A DNA stretch of 64,000 bases from contig RECZ01000102.1 in NCBI GenBank assembly GCA_007693765.1, positions 1 to 64,000 on the forward strand, read 5' to 3'. This document shows, piece by piece, positions 37,161 through 51,597 of the stretch; position 1 is the stretch's first letter; each line of letters opens with the position of its first letter. The stretch is from Phycisphaerales bacterium (lineage in GTDB: Bacteria; Planctomycetota; Phycisphaerae; Phycisphaerales; UBA1924). Made by a program: the position numbers and the translations under genes. The notes under the pieces were generated by a model, which searched no databases, was not told where the DNA came from, and saw nothing but the letters and a program-made list of their open reading frames with translations.

Positions 37161-37464
37161 GGGCGCATGGTTTGGAAGCCGCGGCCGCTTGTCAACGCTC
37201 CCGCGGGGCTGCCGCCGGGGCCCGCGAGGGTCCGAAACAGCGGATTTGAGCGCGGAATCGACAAAAATGGCGAGTTTTGTGCCATTCGGGGGCCCATCGG
37301 GGCCGTATGGGGTGTACTGTTCCAAGGTCGCTTGTGCCCCCGGCACGGGCGAATCGACTTGGATTCCGCGCTCCGTGTACCTCCGGATGGAGTACACCCG
37401 GGGCGCAGTCGACAACAGAGACCGAATCAGCGTTCGGCGCGACACATTGAGGAGAATCGCAGCG
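37161..37464. other. Divergent intergenic region
   Basis: About 300 bases separate the FAD oxidoreductase and the metalloprotease. It must hold promoters for both. I see GTGTAC/GTACAC as an inverted repeat flanking a CTCCGGATGGA core near 37375-37400 (possible operator or leader hairpin), but no promoter that I would call. Confidence 0.4.
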
Positions 37465-39204
37465 ATGGATGTCATCCGTACCAAACTTTTCGGAGCTTTT
37501 ACGGCGGCGGCCCTCGCCTGCCTCATCCTCACCCCGACGGCGGCGTTCGCGTCGCCAGACAACCCCGTGGCCGCGTCGCGGCTCTTCGCCGACGCCCCGC
37601 GCCCCGCGGACCTGGAGAACCGCGAACTGCCCGAGGTGTCGCGGACCCGCTACGTCACCGTCGACCACGAAGCCCTCGAGTCCGCCCGTCTGCGCGGCGC
37701 CGAGGGGCTCGTCCTCGACCTCTTCCCGGACACGGTGCTCCACGTGACGTACACGCGCGACGAGACGGCCCTGTACGCCGACTACGTCTGGATGGGCGAG
37801 GTCGTGGGCGACCCCGGCAGCAGCGTCGCGCTCTCCGTGAGCCGGGGCATGACCGTGGGTGAGATCAACTCCCCGCAGCACGGCCTCTTCCTCGTGACCT
37901 ACGCCGGCGAGGGCGTGCACTCCATTCTGGAGTTCAACCCCGATGTGCTCGACCCCTGCGCCATGGATCAGGAAGCGCACGCCGTCCACGCGCCCACGAT
38001 GCGCGACGACGAGATCACCGAGCTCGCCCGCTCCAGCGACGACGGCTCGCTGATCGACGTGCTCGTGCTCTACACGCCCTCGGCCCGCAACACCGCCGGC
38101 GGCGAGAACGCGATCCGCAACGCCATCGACTCGTTCATCGCCCAGACCAACAACTCCTACAACAACAGCGCCATCACCCCCCGCGTCCGCCTGGTGCACG
38201 CCGCGCTGACCAACTACACCGAATCGCCCAACGGGATGGGCACCGACCTGAGCAACCTGCGCAGCACCACCAACGGCATCATGCCCGAGGCCCACACGCT
38301 GCGCAACCAGTACGGCGCCGACCTCGTCGCCCTCATCTCGATGTCCACCGGCGCGTGCGGCATCGCCTACCTCATGACGAACCCCTCCGTCGGCTTCCAG
38401 AGCAACGCCTTCAGCGTGACGCGCTACACCTGCGGCGGCCTCACCTTCGCCCACGAACTCGGCCACAACCAGGGCAGCAACCACGATCACCAGAACGCCT
38501 CCAACGGCGCGTACTGCTACTCGTTCGGCTACCGCACGCCCAACAGCCAGTGGCGCACCGTCATGGCGTACGCCCCCGGCACCCGGATCTCGTACTTCTC
38601 CAACCCCGACATCACGTTCAACGGCTTCCCGATGGGCATCTCCGGCAACGGCTGCCCCTCCAACGCCGCCGACAACGCCCGCTCGATCGACAACACCGCC
38701 ATCTTCGTCGCCAACTTCCGCAAGAGCGTCGTGGGCAACCCGCCGCCCGAGTCGTTCACGCTCAACAACCCGCCCGCCGACGCCGTCGGCGTCAGCACCG
38801 GCGTCAACTTCACGTGGCAGACGGCCACCTACGCCCAGACGTACGACCTCACCGTCTCGACCAACAGCGACCTCTCCGACCCGATCATCTACGCCACGGA
38901 CATCAGCACCACCAACTACTCCGTCGGCTCCGGCACGCTCGAGTTCTTCACCGACTACTACTGGAGCGTGCAGGCCTTCGGCTTCGGCGGCGACACCGTC
39001 AGCAGCCCCGAGGTGCAGACGTTCCGCACCCGCTCGCAGGGCGACATCACCGGCGACGGGCAGGTCGGCTTCAACGACCTCAGCCTCGTGCTGGGACAGT
39101 TCGGCCAGACCGGCAGCGGCCTCGACGGCGACGTCAACGGCGACGGGCAGGTCGGCTTCGCTGACCTGAGCATCATCCTCTCCACGTTCGGCCAGGGCTC
39201 CTGA
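37465..39204 (+). CDS. Secreted reprolysin-like zinc metalloprotease with Fn3-like and dockerin-like modules
   Basis: A 579-residue exported protease. The signal peptide is about residues 1-29 (ends TAAFA). A propeptide-like region runs to about 190. The catalytic domain has DVLVLYTPSAR, the zinc motif FAHELGHNQGSNHD (HExxHxxGxxHD) and a downstream Met-turn TVMAYAPG. A fibronectin-like module covers about 430-520 (TATYAQTYDLTVSTNSDLSD), then two dockerin-like repeats (GDITGDGQVGFNDLSLVLGQ, GDVNGDGQVGFADLSIILST). The ATG at 37465 has GAGGAGA about 10 bases upstream. Extracellular protein breakdown is the likely role. Confidence 0.92.
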   Translation: MDVIRTKLFGAFTAAALACLILTPTAAFASPDNPVAASRLFADAPRPADLENRELPEVSRTRYVTVDHEALESARLRGAEGLVLDLFPDTVLHVTYTRDETALYADYVWMGEVVGDPGSSVALSVSRGMTVGEINSPQHGLFLVTYAGEGVHSILEFNPDVLDPCAMDQEAHAVHAPTMRDDEITELARSSDDGSLIDVLVLYTPSARNTAGGENAIRNAIDSFIAQTNNSYNNSAITPRVRLVHAALTNYTESPNGMGTDLSNLRSTTNGIMPEAHTLRNQYGADLVALISMSTGACGIAYLMTNPSVGFQSNAFSVTRYTCGGLTFAHELGHNQGSNHDHQNASNGAYCYSFGYRTPNSQWRTVMAYAPGTRISYFSNPDITFNGFPMGISGNGCPSNAADNARSIDNTAIFVANFRKSVVGNPPPESFTLNNPPADAVGVSTGVNFTWQTATYAQTYDLTVSTNSDLSDPIIYATDISTTNYSVGSGTLEFFTDYYWSVQAFGFGGDTVSSPEVQTFRTRSQGDITGDGQVGFNDLSLVLGQFGQTGSGLDGDVNGDGQVGFADLSIILSTFGQGS

Positions 39205-39271: not shown

Positions 39272-39432
39272 CGCGGACAACCCCCCGCGCTTCACGCGCA
39301 ACCCCCCACGCGCAACCCCACGCGCAACCATGCGGTGAGACAACGTCAGGAACGCTCGCGGCCGCACGCAAGGCCAAACGGCGCCCGGCGGGCACGCAGG
39401 TTTTTCTTCATCTCGTGAGAGGAAAGACGCCC

Positions 39433-40503
39433 ATGCATAGAGCAACCCGGTCATTCGCGCTCGGGGCCGCGCTCGCGGCGGGGGCGCCGGCGGGCGCGGC
39501 GACGCTCACGCAGTCGGTTTCGCACACACCGACCCATGTGCGCCTCGGGCACTTGATGCTCAACGACGACCCGGGGGCGGTGTACAACAGCGCCACGCTG
39601 CAAGGCCTCTTTCTGCCGCTCGCGGAGTTGATCCACGACTTCGGCGTGCAGCACGGCAACCCGGCGAGCGGCTTTGCGAACGCGCAGGACTTTCTGGATT
39701 CGGCGCTGACCGGGGGCACGACCGGAGGGGGCCAGATCAATACGCTAAACGGGTGGCTTCTCACCGGAAAAGACCCGCTGGAGATCACCAACGTCGGGGG
39801 GTTCCCGGGCTTCGACTACACGCCGTGGACGCACGGGGTGCAGGCGTTTTATCGCTTGAGCATTCCCCGGCAGTACCTCACCGCCTCCGGCGACCCCGGT
39901 GATTGGGGCGTCGAGGGGAAGGTCTACGCGACCATCACGCTCTCGGACATCGTTGTCCCGGATGCGTTTGTGGGGCGGGCGGGCATTAACAGTTGGTCCG
40001 CCGACGGCCTCGCCTACCGGCTCACGATCGTCTCGCCGGCGCCGCAGGCGTTCGCGCTGGTCAGCCCGGCGGACAACGCCACGGGCGTCGCGGCGGGGGC
40101 GTCGTTCTCGTGGGAGGGCGCGGCGTACGCCCAGACGTACGTGCTCTCGGTCTCGACGCACAGCGACCTGAGCGACCCCGTCGTCCAGCACACGCTCGGC
40201 GAGACCTCGTACACGCTCCCGGCCCAGACGCTCGACCACATGACCGACTACCACTGGGGCGTGAAGGCGATCGGCCACGGCGGCGAGACGCTCAGCGACC
40301 CCGCGGCCCGCGCCTTCCGCACCCGCCCGCGGGGCGACATCACCGGCGACGGCGTGGTGGGCTTCGACGACCTGAGCATCGTGCTGTCCCAGTTCGGCCA
40401 GTCCGGCCCCGGCCTCGAGGGCGACGTGAACGCCGACGGCGTGGTCGACTTCGCCGACCTGAGCATCATCCTCGCCGACTTCGGCCAGGGCGCGGGGGGC
40501 TGA
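39433..40503 (+). CDS. Secreted protein with Fn3-like and dockerin-like modules
   Basis: A 356-residue exported protein. The signal peptide is about residues 1-24 (SFALGAALAAGAPAGA). An N-terminal domain of about 180 residues is unknown (NDDPGAVYNSATLQGLFLPL, PWTHGVQAFYRLSIP). The second half is clearly homologous to the C-terminal half of the preceding metalloprotease: Fn3-like block AAYAQTYVLSVSTHSDLSDP, then dockerin-like GDITGDGVVGFDDLSIVLSQ and GDVNADGVVDFADLSIILAD. The ATG at 39433 has GAGAGGA about 9 bases upstream. It was probably formed by module duplication. Confidence 0.85.
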   Translation: MHRATRSFALGAALAAGAPAGAATLTQSVSHTPTHVRLGHLMLNDDPGAVYNSATLQGLFLPLAELIHDFGVQHGNPASGFANAQDFLDSALTGGTTGGGQINTLNGWLLTGKDPLEITNVGGFPGFDYTPWTHGVQAFYRLSIPRQYLTASGDPGDWGVEGKVYATITLSDIVVPDAFVGRAGINSWSADGLAYRLTIVSPAPQAFALVSPADNATGVAAGASFSWEGAAYAQTYVLSVSTHSDLSDPVVQHTLGETSYTLPAQTLDHMTDYHWGVKAIGHGGETLSDPAARAFRTRPRGDITGDGVVGFDDLSIVLSQFGQSGPGLEGDVNADGVVDFADLSIILADFGQGAGG

Positions 40504-41027: not shown

Positions 41028-42341
41028 TCAATCCTCGCGCTGCGCCTCGTCCAGGCGCGTCGCCGAGAGCGCCGCCAGCGCCGACATCCCCGCGAAGAGC
41101 AGCAGCGTGGCCTCGAACCCGAACCGCTGCGCCACGGCCGCGGTGGCCCCGGCCGCCAGCAGCAGCACGCCGATCGCCGTGTTCGAGAGCGCTGTGTACG
41201 CGGCGCGGGTCTCCTCCGTGGCCATGTCGACGATGTGCGTCGCCCGCCCCACGCGCACCCCCTGGTGGGCGATCATCAGCACGAAGAGCAGCGTCGGGAA
41301 CAGCCACAGGCCCGTGGCGCCGCCCACGCCCGCCAGCCCCGCAACCGCCGCGCCGGCCATGGTCGCCGCGCCGATCACGCCGGCGAGGATCATCACCCGC
41401 CGGCTGGAGCGGTCCGACATGCGCCCCCAGATGTACGAACTCACCAGCGAGGCCGTCGCGGACGCGATCAGGAACGGCCCCAGCCGCCCCAGCCCGTTGT
41501 CGCCGTCGACGCCGCTCATGGCCAGCACGTAGGGCGGCGCCAGCGCCGTCGCGGTCAGCAGCCCGCGCGTGACGATGAACCGCCGCAGCGGCGCATCGGT
41601 GCGCAGCAGACCCACCTGTCGCACGGCGACGCGCAGCGCGCTCTGGCCGCCCTCGGTCGATCCGGGCGCCTCCGCCAGCGTCGCGAACAGCGCGGCCGCG
41701 GCCAGCCAGCATCCCGCCGCGACCAGCAGCACGATCGCGACGTTGGGGACGGTGAGCGGGATGATCCCGAAACTGAGCAGAGCGCCGAACGCCAGCACCA
41801 CACCCGCCGAGGCCGTCGCCGCGGAGCCCGTGGCCGTGCCGCGTGTCGCCTTCGACACCGTTTTGCCCAGCACGTCCTTGTACGTCACCGAGCACACGCT
41901 CCGCGCCACGGCGAAGACGGCGAGCAGGCCGATGATCGCCGCCCCGGCCGCGGGCCCCTCCATGGTGAACGCCGTGGCCGCGATGCCGATCAGGGCCAGC
42001 GCCTGCGCCACGCTCCCCAGCGCCCACGCCCACTTGCGCACCGGCAGTTTGCGGAGAACGCCCGCGGTCACGAGTTGCGGCAGCAGCGACCCCGCCTCCC
42101 GCACCGGGACCAGGAGCCCGATCATCCCGGCGGGCGCGCCCAGCGCCGTGAGCAGCCACGCCAGCGTCAGTTTGGGGTCGGCGAGGCCGTCGCCCGCCTT
42201 GGTCAGCGTGAGGCTGGCGACGTGCACCGTGAAGTTTCGCGGCTGCTCTTGGCACGCTTCTTCGGGGATGTCGCGGCAGACGCGCCCGTCGTCCTCGGAG
42301 GTCAGCGTCTCGTGGATGGCTTTGGAGATCGAAGCGGGCAA
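41028..42341 (-). CDS. Major facilitator superfamily transporter
   Basis: A 437-residue membrane protein with about 10-12 predicted helices in two halves. The cytoplasmic motif A-like loop WGRMSDRSSRR lies between helices in the second half. The start is TTG at 42341 with GGAGG six bases upstream; no ATG fits better. The frame continues far upstream but that part overlaps the C39-like gene on the other strand. Substrate unknown. It is divergent from the peptide-ligase operon across about 150 bases that include a CCCCCGGA-type tandem repeat. Confidence 0.85.
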   Translation of the reverse strand: MPASISKAIHETLTSEDDGRVCRDIPEEACQEQPRNFTVHVASLTLTKAGDGLADPKLTLAWLLTALGAPAGMIGLLVPVREAGSLLPQLVTAGVLRKLPVRKWAWALGSVAQALALIGIAATAFTMEGPAAGAAIIGLLAVFAVARSVCSVTYKDVLGKTVSKATRGTATGSAATASAGVVLAFGALLSFGIIPLTVPNVAIVLLVAAGCWLAAAALFATLAEAPGSTEGGQSALRVAVRQVGLLRTDAPLRRFIVTRGLLTATALAPPYVLAMSGVDGDNGLGRLGPFLIASATASLVSSYIWGRMSDRSSRRVMILAGVIGAATMAGAAVAGLAGVGGATGLWLFPTLLFVLMIAHQGVRVGRATHIVDMATEETRAAYTALSNTAIGVLLLAAGATAAVAQRFGFEATLLLFAGMSALAALSATRLDEAQRED

Positions 42342-42494: not shown

Positions 42495-43343
42495 ATGATC
42501 CACCCGCCGCGCCGATCCTCGGACGCGGCGCACAGGCTCCACGGGATGCGCAACAGACTCTCTCTCGACATCCTCGCCCAGCCGGACGACACCACGTGCG
42601 GCCCAACGTGCCTGCACGCGCTCTATCGCTACTACGGCGACGACATGCCTCTCGAGCGGGTGATCGACGAGACGCAGCGCCTCCGCCACGGGGGCACGCT
42701 AGCGGTGCTGCTCGCCAAGCACGCGATGCGGCGCGGGTACAAGGTGCAGATCTACACCTACAACGTGCACGTCTTTGATCCCACGTGGTTCGAGCCCGGC
42801 GCCGGGGACATGCGCGACCTCCTGCGCGCCCAGATCAAGCGCAAGCGCGACGCCCGGATCCGGTTCGCGTCCAGGGCGTACATCGAATTTCTTGACATGG
42901 GAGGCGAGATCTACCTGCGCGACCTGACGCGCGACCTCATCAGGAAGCACCTCGACCGGGGCGTGCCCATCCTCACCGGCCTCAACGCGACGTACCTCTA
43001 CCGCGAGGCCCGCGAGCGCCAGCGCGACGGCAAGCCCGACCCCATCGGGGGCGAGAGCACCGGGCACTTCGTGGTGCTGAGCGGGTACGACCGCGAGGAG
43101 CGCACCGTCAGCGTCGCCGACCCGCTGGAATCCAACCCCGTCTCGCGCACCACCAGTTACGACGTGGACATCGACCGCCTGATGTGCTCGATCCTGCTGG
43201 GCATCGCGACGTACGACGCCAACCTGCTCATCATCCGCCCCGGCGATTCGAAGGGATCGCCCAGCCCCGCGCCGACGACCAAGGTCGCCCGGCGCAAGGG
43301 CGCGAAGGGAGGCAAACGTGCCCGCGCTCGTCGTCGTCAGTGA
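42495..43343 (+). CDS. C39-like cysteine peptidase, first gene of the amide-ligase operon
   Basis: A 282-residue papain-fold peptidase of the C39-like type. QPDDTTCGPTC places the presumed nucleophile Cys35 (from the first ATG). The His is H191 in STGHFVVLSGYD and the Asp D209 in VADPLES. A basic tail (KGAKGGKRARARRRQ) ends it. The start is ATG at 42495 (GAGGGG about 7 bases upstream) or ATG 42546 (MRNRLSLD). Related peptidases occur next to or fused with GNAT domains beside RimK-like ligases; here no GNAT is fused. The next gene begins 26 bases before this one ends. A role in cutting a peptide made by the operon is inferred. Confidence 0.8.
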   Translation: MIHPPRRSSDAAHRLHGMRNRLSLDILAQPDDTTCGPTCLHALYRYYGDDMPLERVIDETQRLRHGGTLAVLLAKHAMRRGYKVQIYTYNVHVFDPTWFEPGAGDMRDLLRAQIKRKRDARIRFASRAYIEFLDMGGEIYLRDLTRDLIRKHLDRGVPILTGLNATYLYREARERQRDGKPDPIGGESTGHFVVLSGYDREERTVSVADPLESNPVSRTTSYDVDIDRLMCSILLGIATYDANLLIIRPGDSKGSPSPAPTTKVARRKGAKGGKRARARRRQ

Positions 43344-44817
43344 ACCGGAGGACTGGTCGGACGAGGTGCTCGGCGCCACGGTCGTCAGCGCGCGCGACTA
43401 TCTCATTCAGCCCCGCTTCAGCGAGTCGCGCGGGTGGAAGGTGCACAACCTGTGCCGCTCGTACCGCTACCAGAGCGCGGGGTATTACGTCTCGCTGCTG
43501 GCCGCGGCCCGCGGGCACAAGCCCATGCCCAGCATCACGACGATCCAGGACATGAAGTCCGTCTCGCTGGCGCGGGCGGCGACGTGGGACCTCGACGAGC
43601 AGATCCAGAAGAGCCTCACGCCGATCACGACGGGCAAGTTCACGCTGAGCATCTACTTCGGGCGCAACTTCGCCCAGCGCTACCAGCGCCTCAGCCTCGC
43701 GCTCTTCAATCTGTTCCCGGCGCCGCTGCTGCGGGCGCAATTCAAGCGCGAGAGCGACGAGTGGCGCCTGCAGAGCATCAGCCCCATCAGCGCCGAGGAC
43801 GTGCCCGACGAGCACTGGCCCTTCGTCTTCGAGAGCGCCGCCCATTACTTCGAGCGCGGCGTGCCGACCTCGCGGCGCACCAAGGCGGCGCGGTACGACC
43901 TCGCCATCCTCCACAACCCCGAGCAGCGCGACTCGCCCTCCGGGCCCAAGACGCTCCAGAAATTCGTCCGGGCGGCGGAGGCGCTGGGCATGCGCGCCGA
44001 GCTCATCACCCGCGACGACTACGGGCGCCTGGCGGAGTTCGACGCCCTCTTCATCCGTGAGACCACCTACCCCAACAACTACACGTACCGCTTCGCGCGG
44101 CGCGCCGCGGCGGAGGGGCTCGTCGTCATGGACGACCCCGACTCCATCGTGAAATGCACCAACAAGGTGTACCTCGCGGAACTGATGAACCGCCACAAGG
44201 CGCCCACGCCCAAGACGCTGATCGTGCACCGCGACAACGTCGCCGACATCGCCCCCACGCTGGGGATGCCCTGCGTGCTCAAGCAGCCCGACAGCTCGTT
44301 CTCGCAGGGCGTCGTCAAGGTGAACGATGAGGATGAGCTCCGCGTGCAGATCAAGGCGCTGCTCGAGAGCTCCGAGATGCTCATCGCGCAGGAATTCGTG
44401 CCCACCAAGTTCGACTGGCGGATCGGGGTCATCGACCGCAAACCGCTGTATGCGTGCCGCTACTTCATGGCGGAGAAGCACTGGCAGATCATCAACCAGC
44501 AGCGCCCCGAGCGCGGGCGGTACGGGCGTGTGGAGACGATCCCGGTGGAGGACGCCCCGCCGCGGGTGGTGAAACTCGCGGTGCGCGCCGCGAACCTGAT
44601 CGGGGACGGCTTCTACGGCGTGGACATCAAGGAGCGCGCCGGGCGGTGCTACGTGATCGAGGTCAACGACAACCCCAACGTCGACAGCGGCTACGAGGAC
44701 GCCGTGCTCAAGAAGGACCTCTACGCCACGGTGATGGGGGTCTTCCTGCGACGCATCGAGGAACGCAAGAACGGGAGGGGCGCGGGTGAGCGAGCCGGGC
44801 ACGCGACGACTGTTTGA
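43318..44817 (+). CDS. RimK-like ATP-grasp amide ligase with N-terminal RLAN-type domain
   Basis: A 499-residue ligase. The N-terminal 200 residues match the RimK-associated (RLAN) domain (ARDYLIQPRFSESRGWKVHN, SAGYYVSLLAAARGHKPMPS). The ATP-grasp core has KCTNKVYLAELMNRHKAP, CVLKQPDSSFSQGVVKV, IAQEFVPTKFDWRIGVIDRK and the metal-binding EVNDNPNVDSGYED. The family joins an amino group to a carboxylate with ATP, often Glu tails. The GTG at 43318 has GGGAGG five bases upstream. It overlaps the C39-like gene by 26 bases and the GCS2 gene by 32 bases. Substrate unknown. Confidence 0.9.
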   Translation: MPALVVVSEPEDWSDEVLGATVVSARDYLIQPRFSESRGWKVHNLCRSYRYQSAGYYVSLLAAARGHKPMPSITTIQDMKSVSLARAATWDLDEQIQKSLTPITTGKFTLSIYFGRNFAQRYQRLSLALFNLFPAPLLRAQFKRESDEWRLQSISPISAEDVPDEHWPFVFESAAHYFERGVPTSRRTKAARYDLAILHNPEQRDSPSGPKTLQKFVRAAEALGMRAELITRDDYGRLAEFDALFIRETTYPNNYTYRFARRAAAEGLVVMDDPDSIVKCTNKVYLAELMNRHKAPTPKTLIVHRDNVADIAPTLGMPCVLKQPDSSFSQGVVKVNDEDELRVQIKALLESSEMLIAQEFVPTKFDWRIGVIDRKPLYACRYFMAEKHWQIINQQRPERGRYGRVETIPVEDAPPRVVKLAVRAANLIGDGFYGVDIKERAGRCYVIEVNDNPNVDSGYEDAVLKKDLYATVMGVFLRRIEERKNGRGAGERAGHATTV

Positions 44818-46039
44818 GGCGTTCGGCGTCGAGATCGAGCACATGATCGTGCGCGCCGACACGCTCGACGTCGCGCCCGTCTGCGACGCCGTCATCCACG
44901 CCCGGACCGGCGGCTACGACGAGGACGTCGAGCACGGCGACATCGCGTGGTGCAACGAACTGGCGCTGCACGTGCTCGAGTTCAAGACCAACGGCCCTGC
45001 GCCCACCCTCACCGGCGCCCTCGTCGCCCGCTTCCAGGACGAGGTGCGCCTCGCGCACGAGACGCTCGCTCCGCTCGGCGCCCGCCTCATGCCCGGCGCC
45101 ATGCACCCGTGGATGGACCCGCACCGCGAACTGCGGCTCTGGCCGCACGGGTACAGCACGGTGTACGAGGCCTTCGACCGCGCTTTCGACTGCACGGGGC
45201 ACGGGTGGGCCAACCTCCAGAGCTCGCACCTGAACCTGCCCTTCGCCGACGACGAGGAGTTCGGGCGCCTGCACGCCGCGATCCGTGTGATCCTGCCCAT
45301 CCTGCCCGCGCTCGCCGCGGCCTCGCCCTTCGCCGATGCGAAGGCTACCGGCCTGATGGACACCCGCCTCGAGGTGTACCGCCACAACGCGCGGCGCGTG
45401 CCCAGCGTCTCGGGGCGCATCATCCCCGAGCCGATTTTTACGCGCGACGAGTACGAGAACACCCTGCTCGCCGGCCTCTACCGCGACATCGCCCCGCACG
45501 ACCCCGGCGGCGCGCTGCGCCACGAATGGCTCAACGCCCGCGGCGCCATCGCCCGCTTCGACCGCGACACCATCGAGATACGCGTGCTCGACACGCAGGA
45601 GTGCCCGCGCGCCGACATCGCCATCCATCACGCCGTCGTGGAGGTCCTGCGCGGCCTGGTCGAGGAGCGCTGGTCGAGCCTGTGCGATCAGCAGTCGTGG
45701 GGCGTCGAGCCCCTCGCCGACATGCTGCTCCGCGCCGTGAAGGACGCCGGGGCCGCGCCCATCGACAACGACGACTACCTCGCCCTCTTCGGCGTGCCCG
45801 CCGGCGGCGCGGGCACGATGCGCGACCTGTGGGGACGGCTCATCGAGGACGTCGTCGCCGTCTCGCCGCACGCCGACCAAGTGCTCGTGGGCGCCCTGCG
45901 CGCAGTCCACCGCGAGGGGTGCCTTGCGCAGCGCATGCTCCGCGCGCTGGGAACCGGCGAGCCCACGCGCGACCGCCTGCACGCGCTGCACGCCGAACTG
46001 TGCGCGTGCCTCGCCGAGGGGACGCTCTTCCGTGCCTGA
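44786..46039 (+). CDS. GCS2-like carboxylate-amine ligase
   Basis: A 417-residue glutamine-synthetase-fold ligase related to GCS2/YbdK glutamate-cysteine ligases. Typical motifs: GVEIEHMIV (first Glu), GAMHPWMDPHRE, the SSHLNLPF block, MDTRLEVYRHN and the late IEIRVLDTQECPRADIAI. It probably activates a carboxylate and joins an amine; glutathione-like chemistry is possible but not shown. The start is GTG at 44786, 32 bases inside the RimK-like gene. Its end overlaps the next gene by 8 bases. Confidence 0.88.
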   Translation: MSEPGTRRLFEAFGVEIEHMIVRADTLDVAPVCDAVIHARTGGYDEDVEHGDIAWCNELALHVLEFKTNGPAPTLTGALVARFQDEVRLAHETLAPLGARLMPGAMHPWMDPHRELRLWPHGYSTVYEAFDRAFDCTGHGWANLQSSHLNLPFADDEEFGRLHAAIRVILPILPALAAASPFADAKATGLMDTRLEVYRHNARRVPSVSGRIIPEPIFTRDEYENTLLAGLYRDIAPHDPGGALRHEWLNARGAIARFDRDTIEIRVLDTQECPRADIAIHHAVVEVLRGLVEERWSSLCDQQSWGVEPLADMLLRAVKDAGAAPIDNDDYLALFGVPAGGAGTMRDLWGRLIEDVVAVSPHADQVLVGALRAVHREGCLAQRMLRALGTGEPTRDRLHALHAELCACLAEGTLFRA

Positions 46040-46760
46040 GGCGCCGCGCCCGCACCGCCCGGCGCTGCTGCTCACGTGCGAGCACGCCGGCAACACTGTG
46101 CCGCGGGAGTTCGCGCACCTGTTCAGCGGGCACGACGCCACCCTCGAGAGCCACCGCGGCTGGGACATCGGCGCCCACGCGCTCGCCCGCGGCATGGCCC
46201 GCGCCGCCGGCGCCCCGCTCATCGCGCACACCATCACGCGCCTGCTCGTCGAGGTGAACCGCTCGCCGCATCACCGTGCGCTCTTCTCCGAGTTCACGCG
46301 CGGCCTTCCGAAAGACGAGAAAGCACGCATCGTGCGCACGCACTACGCGCCACACCGCGAACGCGTCGAGCGCGAGATCGGCGCGATGGGCAGGGGCGGG
46401 CGTTGCGTCGTCCTCGTCGGGGTGCACTCGTTCACGCCCGAACTCGGCGGCGAGGTGCGCACCGCCGACATCGGCCTGCTCTACGACCCGAAAAGAGCGC
46501 TGGAGAAATCGTTCTGTCACGCGTGGCGCGATGCGCTGCGGCGCGTCGACCCCGAGCAGCGCGTGCGCATGAACTACCCCTACCGCGGCGCCGCCGACGG
46601 CTTCACGACGTACCTGCGTTCGCGCTTCTCGCCGAATCGCTTCCTCGGCATCGAGCTCGAGGTCAACCAGCGCATCGCCCTCGACGGGGGCGAGCCGTGG
46701 CGGCGCCTGCAGCGCACGCTCTCGAACACGCTCGCCGAGACTCTCCGCAGCGGCGCATAA
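46032..46760 (+). CDS. N-formylglutamate amidohydrolase-like protein
   Basis: A 242-residue zinc hydrolase of the FGase family. Motifs: LLLTCEHAGNTVP, LVEVNRSPHHRALF, HSFTPELGG and a C-terminal GIELEVNQRIALDGG. The last Glu-containing block fits the family. It probably removes an amide-linked group from a Glu-like product rather than acting in histidine breakdown, since no hut genes are near. The start is GTG at 46032, overlapping the GCS2 stop by 8 bases. It ends the four-gene operon. Confidence 0.87.
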   Translation: MPEAPRPHRPALLLTCEHAGNTVPREFAHLFSGHDATLESHRGWDIGAHALARGMARAAGAPLIAHTITRLLVEVNRSPHHRALFSEFTRGLPKDEKARIVRTHYAPHRERVEREIGAMGRGGRCVVLVGVHSFTPELGGEVRTADIGLLYDPKRALEKSFCHAWRDALRRVDPEQRVRMNYPYRGAADGFTTYLRSRFSPNRFLGIELEVNQRIALDGGEPWRRLQRTLSNTLAETLRSGA

Positions 46761-47856: not shown

Positions 47857-48806
47857 GGGAAGCCCTCCGGGATGCGTTCCGGCCGGTCGTTGAGCCACCC
47901 GACGAGCCACTCGTAGGCGTCCACGAGCCGCGGCCCGGGGCGGTTGAACATCTGATTGCCGTCGACGATTGCCACCCGCCCGGCGCGGACGGCGGGCAGA
48001 TCGGCCCACCACGCCGATTCGGCGAGCTTCCGCGTCTCGGCGCGCGTCTGATCGAGTGTCAGGCCGCAGGGACAGACGATCACCACCTCGGGCGCCACGC
48101 CCACGATCGCCTCCGGGGGCACGCGGATCGACTTTCCCGCCACCCGGTGGGCCATCTGGCCCCCCGCGCCCGCCCCGGCGCCGGGCATGGGCGCTGTGGG
48201 GTTGAGCGGGTGGGTGGCGCCGGCGCGTTCGATGAGTTGCGGCGTCCAGTGCCCGCCGATGAACGGGGGGTCGGTCCATTCGAGGAAGACCACGCGCGGC
48301 CCCTCGACGTAGGGCGTGACCAGTTCCGCCGCGGCGAAGAACCGGTCCCGCAACGCCATCATCGCCCGCCCGGCCTCGGCCTCGCGCCCGATGGCCCGGC
48401 CAACGCGGAGGACGTCGTCGAGCACGTCCTCGAAGGTGGCCGGGTTGAGGCTGAGCACCTCTGGAGCGGGGCTCATGCCCGCGGCGACGGCCCGGACGGT
48501 GTTCAGATCTATGGAGCAGACCTCGCAGAGGTCCTGCGTGAGGATGAGGTCTGGTTTGAGCGATCGGAGCAGGTCGGAGTCGAGGGTGTAGAGGGAGCGG
48601 CCCTCGCGCAGCGAGGCCGAGACGGCCCGGTCCACCCCCGAACTGCCGCCCAATGCGTCAAAATCGGTGTTCTGAGACGTCAGAACGGGCCGATCAAGGA
48701 TGTCAGCGGGCGCATCGCACTCGTGCGATCGACCGACGAGCAATTCGGAACCGCCCGCGACGCAGAGCGTCTCAGTGGCCGATGGCAGGAGGCTGACGAC
48801 ACGCAT
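47835..48806 (-). CDS. BtuF-like cobalamin/metal-chelate binding protein (no signal peptide)
   Basis: A 323-residue type III substrate-binding-fold protein. It starts MRVVSLLPSATETLCVAGGS, the usual N-terminus of cobalamin-binding-protein annotations. LVGRSHECDAP, LILTQDLCEVCSI and VVFLEWTDPPFIGGHWTPQL are family blocks. No signal peptide is visible, so it may be cytoplasmic. Ligand uncertain. The ATG at 48806 lies 7 bases from the divergent secretin start. Confidence 0.88.
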   Translation of the reverse strand: MRVVSLLPSATETLCVAGGSELLVGRSHECDAPADILDRPVLTSQNTDFDALGGSSGVDRAVSASLREGRSLYTLDSDLLRSLKPDLILTQDLCEVCSIDLNTVRAVAAGMSPAPEVLSLNPATFEDVLDDVLRVGRAIGREAEAGRAMMALRDRFFAAAELVTPYVEGPRVVFLEWTDPPFIGGHWTPQLIERAGATHPLNPTAPMPGAGAGAGGQMAHRVAGKSIRVPPEAIVGVAPEVVIVCPCGLTLDQTRAETRKLAESAWWADLPAVRAGRVAIVDGNQMFNRPGPRLVDAYEWLVGWLNDRPERIPEGFPWERFEG

Positions 48807-48813
48807 CGTGGCG

Positions 48814-51597
48814 ATGCTACACCCGTCGCGCCTGCCCCGGCCCGCAGGGCTTCGCGGCGTCTCGCGTTCTCTCGCCCTTCGACCCACCGATCACACCCGC
48901 CCCGAGGTCCGCGATTTGAAGCCGAGCCGGCCACACTCCACCGACCCCGCGCCGTTCCTTCCCCGGCCCACCCACCGCGTGCTGTTCGCGTCGTCGCTGC
49001 CGACGATGTGCATCGCGGCCGCGCTGCTCTGGCCCGCTAACGCCGCGTGGTCGCAGCCGCAGGACGAGAACCAGGAAGCCCAGCGTCAAGACGACGCCCG
49101 CGAGGATGCGCAGGAAGACGGCTGGATGCGCCGCGTGTGGCGGCCGGTTCGTCCGGAGCCCATGGTGGAGCCGAGCGAGCCCCCTGAGGATCGGGTGGCG
49201 CCCGATGCGGACCGCACCCGGCTCAACGACCCCGTCCGGGGCATTCCCGGATTCCCCCAAGCCGATCAGATCGCGCCTGGTGATGCGGAGTACGTCGTCT
49301 TCCCAGCGTTCGCAGAGCCGATCGAGCTCTCGTCGCTGATCGACTGGGTCAGCAACCGCCTGCAGGTGAACATCCTCTCCGACCCCTCGATCGCGGGGCG
49401 CATGGTCAAGTTCAACGGCCCGATGCGGGTCCGCCCCGACGAGCTGCTGGACCTGCTCTCGCTGCTCGTCGAGCAGCAGGGCTTCGCGCTGACGCAGGAG
49501 CGTGAGGGCTGGTACGTGATCCGCTCCGCCGGTGAGATCGCGCTGAACCTCGCCGAGGGCGACTTCACCACCACGCGCATCATCGCCACCCCGATGCTCC
49601 GCCCCAGCGCCCTCCGCCCACCCATCGAGACGGCGCTGGCCGGGCGCACCGGCGCCGCGGGGCGGATCTCCTACGTCGACGAGCTGGGCATCATCATCGC
49701 GACGGACACCCCCCGCGGCCTGCGCGCCGTGGAGAGCGTGGTGGACGCGATCATCAGCGAGCAGCTCCGCCAGGGGCTGCATCGCTTCGAGATCCTGCAC
49801 ATCAGCGCCGATCTGGCGCGATCCAAGATCATCGAGCTCAACGGCGGCGGCGCCGGCGCCGGGCGCACGACGCAGGCCCGCGCCCAGACCGGGCAGCAGC
49901 AGACCGGTGGCTCGCCCAGCGCGAGCGGCGGGCTGAGCAACCTCGGCGATCGACTCTTCATCGACGCCGAGAGCAACTCGATCATCTTCCGCGGCGCCCG
50001 CGACGAGAGTGTGCAGGTCGGTGTGCTGCTCGAGGTCATCGACGTCCCCAGCCGCCTCGTCGCCAAGCGGTACCCAGCGGGGCCCGCCTCGCCCGCGATC
50101 ACCTCCTACGGCGAGCGTCGCGGCCTCGGCCCGACGACCAGCACCCAGACCGGCGGAGCCCAGATGGGCTCGCAGCAACTCGGGTTCCGCGCCCCGCAGC
50201 GCGCCGGCGCCGGGCAGACGGGCGAGAGCATGAGCGGCTCGGGCTTCGTGCTCGAGGACAGCCTCGAAGCCTTCGTCTACTTCGGCACCGAAGCGCAACA
50301 CGCGCAGGTGCAGCAACTCGTGGACGCCTTCGCCGAGCATGCGCGCCAGGCGCGCGTCGTCGTCGAGATCTACAAGCTGCGGCACGCCAACGCCGAGGAC
50401 GTCGCCGACCTGCTGCTCAACCTCGTCGAGGATAGAACCCAGGATCAGTTCGGCGTCTCGCCCTTCCTGCCCCAGACCGGCAGCGCGCGCCGCCCCTTCA
50501 CGCCGCCGCAGCCGACCGCGGAGGGCGCCGATGCGCCGCCCCCCGTCGGCAACGGCGACGGCGAGAGCATCTCGTTCACGCCCGCCGAGCAGGTCTCGAT
50601 CACCGCGGACATCTCGCGCAACCAGGTGATCATCAAGGCCCCGGCGCGCCAGCAGGCGGAGTTCAAGTCGATCGTTGAGAAGCTCGACGTACGCAGGCCG
50701 CAGGTGTATATCGAGGCCAAGATCGTCTCCGTCACCACGAGGGACGACTTCACGTTCGCGGTCGAGTCGCAGTTCACGCCGGGCCAGAGCGTGCTCTTCA
50801 CCAACTTCGGCCTGACGACCGCCGGCGAGGGGTCCGACGCGACGGATCGGCGGAACGTGAGCACGGGGCTCAGCGGCCTCACCGCGGCGATCATCAAGAA
50901 CGATTACGTGCCCATCGTCATCAACGCCCTGCAGCGCGTGGGCGACACGCGGATCGTCTCCAACCCGCAGTTGCTGGTGAACGACAACGAGGAGGCGGAA
51001 CTGATCAGCGTGCGCGAGGAGCCCTTCTCGCAGACGTCGCAGGGCGGCGACACGACCATCACCTCACAAGGCGGCGTGGCGGAGGCGGGCACCACGCTCA
51101 CCATCACGCCGCGCATCAGCGACGCGGGCATGCTGAACCTCGAGTACGCGGTGGAGCTCTCTAGCTTTGACGGCACCTCGCCGGGCGGAGGGTTGCAGCC
51201 GCCCAAGCAGAAAGAGAACTACCGCAGCATTGTGACGCTGCCCTCGGATTCGACGATGGTCATCGGCGGGCTCTCGATGGAGCGCTCGGCGCAGAACGTC
51301 TCGAAGGTGCCCTTCCTCGGCGACATCCCGATCATCGGCGAGCTCTTCCGCAGCACTAGCCGGCAGACCATGCAGTCGACGATCTACGTCTTCATCCGCC
51401 CGGTGATCATGCGCGACGCCAACTTCGGCGACCTGCGCCTCATCACCCAGGGGCCGATGGAGATCTCCGGCATCGCCGACGACCCGCCGAGCCTCGAGCC
51501 GGCGCGCATCCCCGTTCACGCCGGGTCGATCACCGGGCGACCCCGCCCCGTCGCCGAGCCCGTCATCACGATGATCGCCGCCGACGACGACCGATGA
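48814..51597 (+). CDS. gspD: Type II secretion secretin GspD
   Basis: A 927-residue outer-membrane secretin. After a leader and signal-like segment (about residues 56-75, SSLPTMCIAAALLWPANAAW) come N0 and N-domains (VISDPSIAG-type block NILSDPSIAGRMVKF; VEIYKLRHANAEDVADLLLN). The secretin core has IEAKIVSVTTRDDF, RIVSNPQLLVNDNEEAE, the VVIGG-like STMVIGGLSMERS and VPFLGDIPIIGELFRS. The core is certain; the start is not. ATG 48814 leaves only 7 bases to the divergent BtuF-like gene, and TTG 48916 has GAGG upstream. It heads the secretion operon; an ATGA overlap couples it to gspE. Confidence 0.92.
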   Translation: MLHPSRLPRPAGLRGVSRSLALRPTDHTRPEVRDLKPSRPHSTDPAPFLPRPTHRVLFASSLPTMCIAAALLWPANAAWSQPQDENQEAQRQDDAREDAQEDGWMRRVWRPVRPEPMVEPSEPPEDRVAPDADRTRLNDPVRGIPGFPQADQIAPGDAEYVVFPAFAEPIELSSLIDWVSNRLQVNILSDPSIAGRMVKFNGPMRVRPDELLDLLSLLVEQQGFALTQEREGWYVIRSAGEIALNLAEGDFTTTRIIATPMLRPSALRPPIETALAGRTGAAGRISYVDELGIIIATDTPRGLRAVESVVDAIISEQLRQGLHRFEILHISADLARSKIIELNGGGAGAGRTTQARAQTGQQQTGGSPSASGGLSNLGDRLFIDAESNSIIFRGARDESVQVGVLLEVIDVPSRLVAKRYPAGPASPAITSYGERRGLGPTTSTQTGGAQMGSQQLGFRAPQRAGAGQTGESMSGSGFVLEDSLEAFVYFGTEAQHAQVQQLVDAFAEHARQARVVVEIYKLRHANAEDVADLLLNLVEDRTQDQFGVSPFLPQTGSARRPFTPPQPTAEGADAPPPVGNGDGESISFTPAEQVSITADISRNQVIIKAPARQQAEFKSIVEKLDVRRPQVYIEAKIVSVTTRDDFTFAVESQFTPGQSVLFTNFGLTTAGEGSDATDRRNVSTGLSGLTAAIIKNDYVPIVINALQRVGDTRIVSNPQLLVNDNEEAELISVREEPFSQTSQGGDTTITSQGGVAEAGTTLTITPRISDAGMLNLEYAVELSSFDGTSPGGGLQPPKQKENYRSIVTLPSDSTMVIGGLSMERSAQNVSKVPFLGDIPIIGELFRSTSRQTMQSTIYVFIRPVIMRDANFGDLRLITQGPMEISGIADDPPSLEPARIPVHAGSITGRPRPVAEPVITMIAADDDR

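Follow-up and report, generated by a model that had tools for sequence, protein, structure and literature searches.

Gene neighbourhoods built around RLAN-RimK ligases are already a known, computationally predicted kind. Those with C39 and GNAT genes were reportedly predicted by Iyer et al. in 2009 to make peptides, and the Pfam text for RLAN reportedly lists GCS2 among the neighbours. Our literature search found no paper mentioning PF14401 or the RLAN domain. The DUF3335 (PF11814) C39-like domains present in many of the GNAT-containing systems frequently occur as fusions with GNAT domains, for which a peptide ligase activity has been suggested (2023 survey, PMC10318531). A second described system is the polyglutamylation of S6, in which RimK adds glutamates to RpsF and RimB, a protease that shares its operon, trims them (PMC12239564).

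The locus described here lies in the window, that is, the whole stretch of 64,000 nucleotides of a Phycisphaerales bacterium that was analysed. It consists of four genes:

42495-43343, plus strand: C39-like peptidase ORF, ATG start, 282 aa
43318-44817, plus strand: RLAN-RimK ligase ORF, GTG start
44786-46039, plus strand: GCS2 ligase ORF, GTG start
46032-46760, plus strand: FGase-like hydrolase ORF, GTG start

The operon shares with the GNAT-C39 systems (PF14401 with PF11814) an RLAN-RimK protein, mostly 37-45% identical, and an adjoining papain-fold C39-like domain. However, GCS2 replaces GNAT, the C39 protein is unfused and of the C39_2 type, and FGase is extra. As in the RimK-RimB system, a RimK-type ligase is linked to a hydrolase, but here the hydrolases are C39 and FGase instead of a retropepsin, and there is a second ligase as well as an RLAN domain. 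The overlaps of 26, 32 and 8 bases reported in the preliminary description were reproduced exactly from the ORFs. Start codons in the operon were chosen mechanically; C39 could just as well begin further in, at 42546, which matches the N-termini of relatives. Tight packing is typical for the whole family, with median intergenic gaps of -4 (C39 to RimK), -4 (RimK to GCS2) and -8 (GCS2 to FGase) across 44-78 loci. An N-terminal hydrophobic or signal-like segment was found in none of the four protein families.

The four family assignments of that description held as well, since every Pfam score beats its curated cut-off. The C39-like protein matches Peptidase_C39_2 (4.5e-12), and its Q29, C35, H191 and D209, kept in 94-100% of 72 rows, fit the C39 oxyanion glutamine and Cys-His-Asp triad. 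In the second protein, an RLAN domain (PF14401, 5.7e-47) is N-terminal to a RimK-like ATP-grasp domain (PF08443, 7.9e-11) with an intact metal site. It matches the RimK/LysX/MptN family, its closest solved structures are of the LysX/RimK type, and it does not match the GshB-type PF02955. Positions K283, K322, R368 and D436 of its ATP/metal site are also conserved. The GCS2 protein exceeds the cut-off for PF04107 (1e-24) and has the fold and the catalytic glutamates, with R194 and E264 also conserved. It falls far under every NCBIfam equivalog cut-off, and represents a separate deep subfamily with the glutamate-cysteine ligase fold. The FGase-like protein belongs to its Pfam superfamily (3.7e-25) and has a solved relative in 2odf (Atu2144; 1.9e-23). 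With H18, H41, D45, R77, H132, E208 and E210 conserved, it is predicted to be an N-formylglutamate amidohydrolase-like metal hydrolase. Assignment as a HutG-type N-formylglutamate deformylase was rejected (20 bits against the NCBIfam TIGR02017 cut-off of 278.75 bits). Since GCS2 and FGase both score far below the equivalog cut-offs, the names glutamate-cysteine ligase and formylglutamate deformylase are unsuitable for them.

Loss in homologues of the ATP-grasp metal site or of the GCS2 glutamates, set beforehand as counting against the proposal, was not seen: E448, N450, D451 and N452 of RimK are present in 99-100% of 80 rows, and E16, E18, E58 and E65 of GCS2 in 100% of 81 rows. Between 47 and 81 rows were aligned, depending on the family, and the catalytic roles are those which we presume from family knowledge. 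Active-site conservation across the four families points to working enzymes.

Of 294 planctomycete genomes, 75 contain the RLAN domain, while all 14 control genomes lack it. For a locus sample drawn through RimK (the RLAN-positive planctomycetes plus 48 relatives), the surrounding DNA was searched with the four window proteins. All four genes were full-length in 44 loci, 27 contained C39-RimK-GCS2, two RimK-GCS2-FGase and six RimK-GCS2, some of them at contig ends. Lack of conserved linkage in other genomes, likewise set beforehand as counting against the proposal, was not seen either: C39-RimK-GCS2(-FGase) is the gene order in members of the Planctomycetota, Pseudomonadota, Nitrospirota, Myxococcota, Thermodesulfobacteriota and Spirochaetota. 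Chlamydiota show a permuted order, mostly RimK-GCS2-FGase-C39, and there the module GCS2 occurs in 7 of 116 genomes, linked in all seven. In all, at least seven bacterial phyla keep these genes together as a unit. Within the Gammaproteobacteria, 12 of 185 genomes have the module by presence of genes. In the reverse direction, a GCS2 profile run against the 294 planctomycete genomes recovered 58 module-type copies in 57 genomes, 57 of them beside or fused to RLAN-RimK. The lone exception is a GCS2-FGase pair with no RimK on its contig (genome G004, L147:6124-8237). RimK and GCS2 are fused in one ORF in five loci (L062, L063, L064, L066 and L067; Pfam was run on L062). Pairwise distances among the four proteins, after removal of close pairs, correlate only moderately (Spearman 0.08-0.44), which leaves room for a degree of gene exchange, particularly of FGase.

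Several loci depart from this layout. An orphan GCS2-type RLAN-RimK (L086:5966-9188) lies in a genome without module GCS2, with a transposase-like ORF, recognized by eye, just upstream; this module may have been broken by insertion. In L037 (G247:C1:1499033-1500260), GCS2 occupies two overlapping ORFs, reflecting a frameshift or a sequencing error. A Methanomicrobiales archaeon (L145:331-6164) has a GCS2 gene some 3.8 kb from a RimK-like ORF in which the matched part does not include RLAN, a possible archaeal relative. One planctomycete family (f15: L068, L069, relatives G009, G060, G113 and others) has very divergent short RLAN matches, some split in two stretches.

Of the GCS2-type loci, 46 contain FGase; no GNAT-type locus does. 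Among 12 planctomycete genomes with an FGase-less cluster, it is encoded elsewhere in three and nowhere in nine, and FGase-less clusters outside planctomycetes show the same mix. FGase is optional and found exclusively alongside GCS2; the core is therefore composed of three genes, C39, RimK and GCS2.

There are two types of RLAN-RimK system, GNAT and GCS2, with hardly any overlap between them. A GNAT gene lies within 3 kb in 26 of 30 RLAN-RimK loci without GCS2, against one of 80 GCS2 loci, where the match is weak and on the opposite strand. In the window operon no GNAT is next to or fused with RLAN-RimK; in L057 the two are fused. GNAT-type loci often contain the DUF3335 C39-like domain. On the RimK tree the two classes are clustered without each forming a single clade; L120, for example, adjoins GCS2-type proteins, yet its downstream region contains a GNAT. 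RLAN-RimK therefore pairs with either GCS2 or GNAT as alternatives. The contrast drawn in the preliminary description (GNAT missing, GCS2 and FGase added) is correct, but it reflects the usual composition of a sister class that is widespread and is no local oddity.

Structural models gave further information about the C39 and GCS2 proteins. The AlphaFold model of the C39 protein (pLDDT 85.9) matches best the leader peptidase domains of PCAT1 and ComA (Z 16-17 over about 140 residues). It is also close to phytochelatin synthase Alr0975, including its glutathione acyl-enzymes (Z 16-16.5, about 165 residues). This synthase is papain-like and removes the glycine from glutathione (PMC10318531). The two matches are a tie, so the modelled fold allows a small gamma-glutamyl peptide as substrate. 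It is equally compatible with hydrolase and transferase, and with peptide and protein substrates. The protein is best described as a putative papain-fold cysteine peptidase/acyltransferase. It shares with phytochelatin synthase (C83), which cuts or transfers a gamma-glutamyl peptide, the papain fold and a cysteine enzyme character (Z 16.5 to Alr0975 over 164 residues), but a family-level sequence match is absent: PF05023 gave none at E up to 1, and the likeness is one of fold only. Glutathionylspermidine synthetase/amidase, with its papain-fold cysteine enzyme acting on a gamma-glutamyl peptide, offers a further parallel.

The leader peptidase match could also suggest that the ligases modify a ribosomal precursor whose leader is cut by C39, all the more as ATP-grasp enzymes make graspetides (PMC8939145). 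However, the RimK here falls in the LysX/MptN/RimK group, and the C39 protein stands alone, with no ABC transporter fusion and only C39-type families matched along its 282 aa. The genes mostly overlap and thus leave no space for a precursor between them. Among nearby ORFs of at least 45 aa no conserved one was found as a candidate double-glycine precursor, and we regard this explanation as highly improbable. The same holds across phyla: beyond the four genes there is no conserved neighbour ORF of at least 45 aa, be it precursor, exporter or target. The flanking clusters are, by eye, synteny among close relatives, ABC ATPases and response regulators. The divergent MFS gene upstream of the operon (41028-42236) was put forward earlier as a possible exporter, an idea that found no support: none of the other sampled clusters has a relative of it within 6 kb, and a different MFS type occurs near L095, L100 and L101 only. 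PADLOC returned no match to anti-phage defence.

The GCS2 model (pLDDT 92.7) is closest to glutamate-amine ligases: Z 38 to the YbdK-type 1tt4/1r8g and Z 33 to plant GCL (2gwc), followed by GshF (Z 25) and E. coli GshA (Z 23), and lastly by Dop/PafA (Z 15-21) and glutamine synthetases (Z 13-15). The physiological activity of YbdK-type GCS2 proteins is weak or unknown. A search for literature on the glutamate-binding residues of plant GCL or EgtA found none. These matches bear on whether the module tags proteins, in which case RLAN-RimK and GCS2 would modify a cellular protein with glutamyl or other residues that C39 and FGase take off again, much as RimK and RimB act on S6. RLAN-RimK belongs to the RimK family, and a ligase-hydrolase pairing suits a reversible tag. 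On the other hand, GCS2 forms its own deep subfamily nearer to free amino acid ligases than to PafA/Dop (Z 33-38 against 15-21), and no target protein gene is conserved nearby, though targets need not be linked. We consider protein tagging rather unlikely.

Glutathione synthesis (GshA/GshB, GshF) also combines a GCS-fold glutamate-amine ligase with an ATP-grasp ligase, sometimes in one polypeptide, and the module could be imagined to make a glutathione-like thiol in organisms without GshB. The host genome indeed has no match to GSH-S_ATP (PF02955). However, the ATP-grasp enzyme here is RimK-like instead of GshB. The module fusions run ATP-grasp then GCS, the reverse of the order in GshF. Moreover, the module coexists with a strong GshB (E < 1e-65) in all seven beta/gammaproteobacterial hosts tested, and in one Myxococcales host. 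Among module-positive planctomycetes, 4 of 57 have a strong GshB (E below 1e-30), a rate similarly low in module-free ones. Since proteobacterial hosts also carry glutathione synthetase, the module is very unlikely to be a glutathione replacement.

We read the module as a widespread cytosolic unit for the synthesis and later cleavage of a small non-ribosomal peptide or peptide conjugate containing glutamyl-type amide bonds, and give this reading a probability of about 0.45. This largely keeps the earlier idea of a closed set for building and then trimming a small peptide, still the most likely interpretation, except that FGase is accessory and the core has three genes. Beside the observed operon conservation, spacing, fusions, intact active sites, folds and GNAT/GCS2 exclusivity, we infer possible substrates, step order and biological role. 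By analogy with GshA, EgtA and YbdK, GCS2 would use ATP to activate a carboxylate, most likely the gamma-carboxylate of Glu, and couple it to an amine. Like RimK, LysX and MptN, RLAN-RimK would proceed via an acyl-phosphate and add one or more acidic amino acids. The C39-like enzyme may then form a thioester acyl-enzyme with the product, followed by hydrolysis or transfer, as phytochelatin synthase does on glutathione. Where present, FGase could remove an N-acyl- or glutamyl-type cap. The proposed order is thus two successive carboxylate-amine ligations, a papain-fold hydrolysis or transfer and an optional cap-removing amidohydrolase step, all presumably cytosolic. Peptide ligases encoded side by side often work one after the other, and their product may be capped by a GNAT where one is linked (PMC4431377). 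The sister class has GNAT in place of GCS2, and the amine-acylating (capping) step is therefore probably the task of GCS2; the restriction of FGase to GCS2 loci would fit with this. Several points speak against a small peptide or leave room for doubt: the substrate of RimK itself is a protein, so that the target could be one here too, YbdK-type GCS2 proteins have little established activity, the C39 fold suits several kinds of substrate, and the distances among the four proteins correlate only moderately. More speculatively, at odds we consider low, the product could be an undescribed gamma-glutamyl-type peptide cofactor or conjugate, distinct from glutathione and shared by at least seven phyla, with the papain-fold enzyme acting as a small-peptide acyltransferase, not as a protease.

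The hydrolases also lend themselves to a degradative or salvage set for environmental gamma-glutamyl or formyl-glutamyl compounds, in which the ligases would conjugate for detoxification. Both FGase-like and C39-like hydrolases are present, FGase being optional. However, the invariant core includes two ATP-dependent ligases, and no transporter or catabolic gene is conserved nearby, and we find this explanation improbable.

That distant phyla retain a self-contained set of three to four enzymes, with fusions and intact sites, suggests a specific metabolite or modification, and its small size makes the module directly testable in vitro. The GNAT/GCS2 swap suggests a clue to the role of the second enzyme. 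To the known neighbourhoods we add a GCS2(-FGase) class, defined here together with its distribution and fusions, the finding that GCS2 and GNAT replace each other almost exclusively, and evidence that the module does not replace glutathione.

Elsewhere in the window, an M12-type metallopeptidase (Reprolysin_5, 3.5e-25) is encoded at 37261-39204. Its C-terminus resembles that of the next ORF (39415-40503), both showing by eye a fibronectin-like stretch and a dockerin-like double repeat (GDxxGDGxVGFxDLSxxL). A GspD-like secretin (Secretin, 4.6e-37) is found at 48700-51597.
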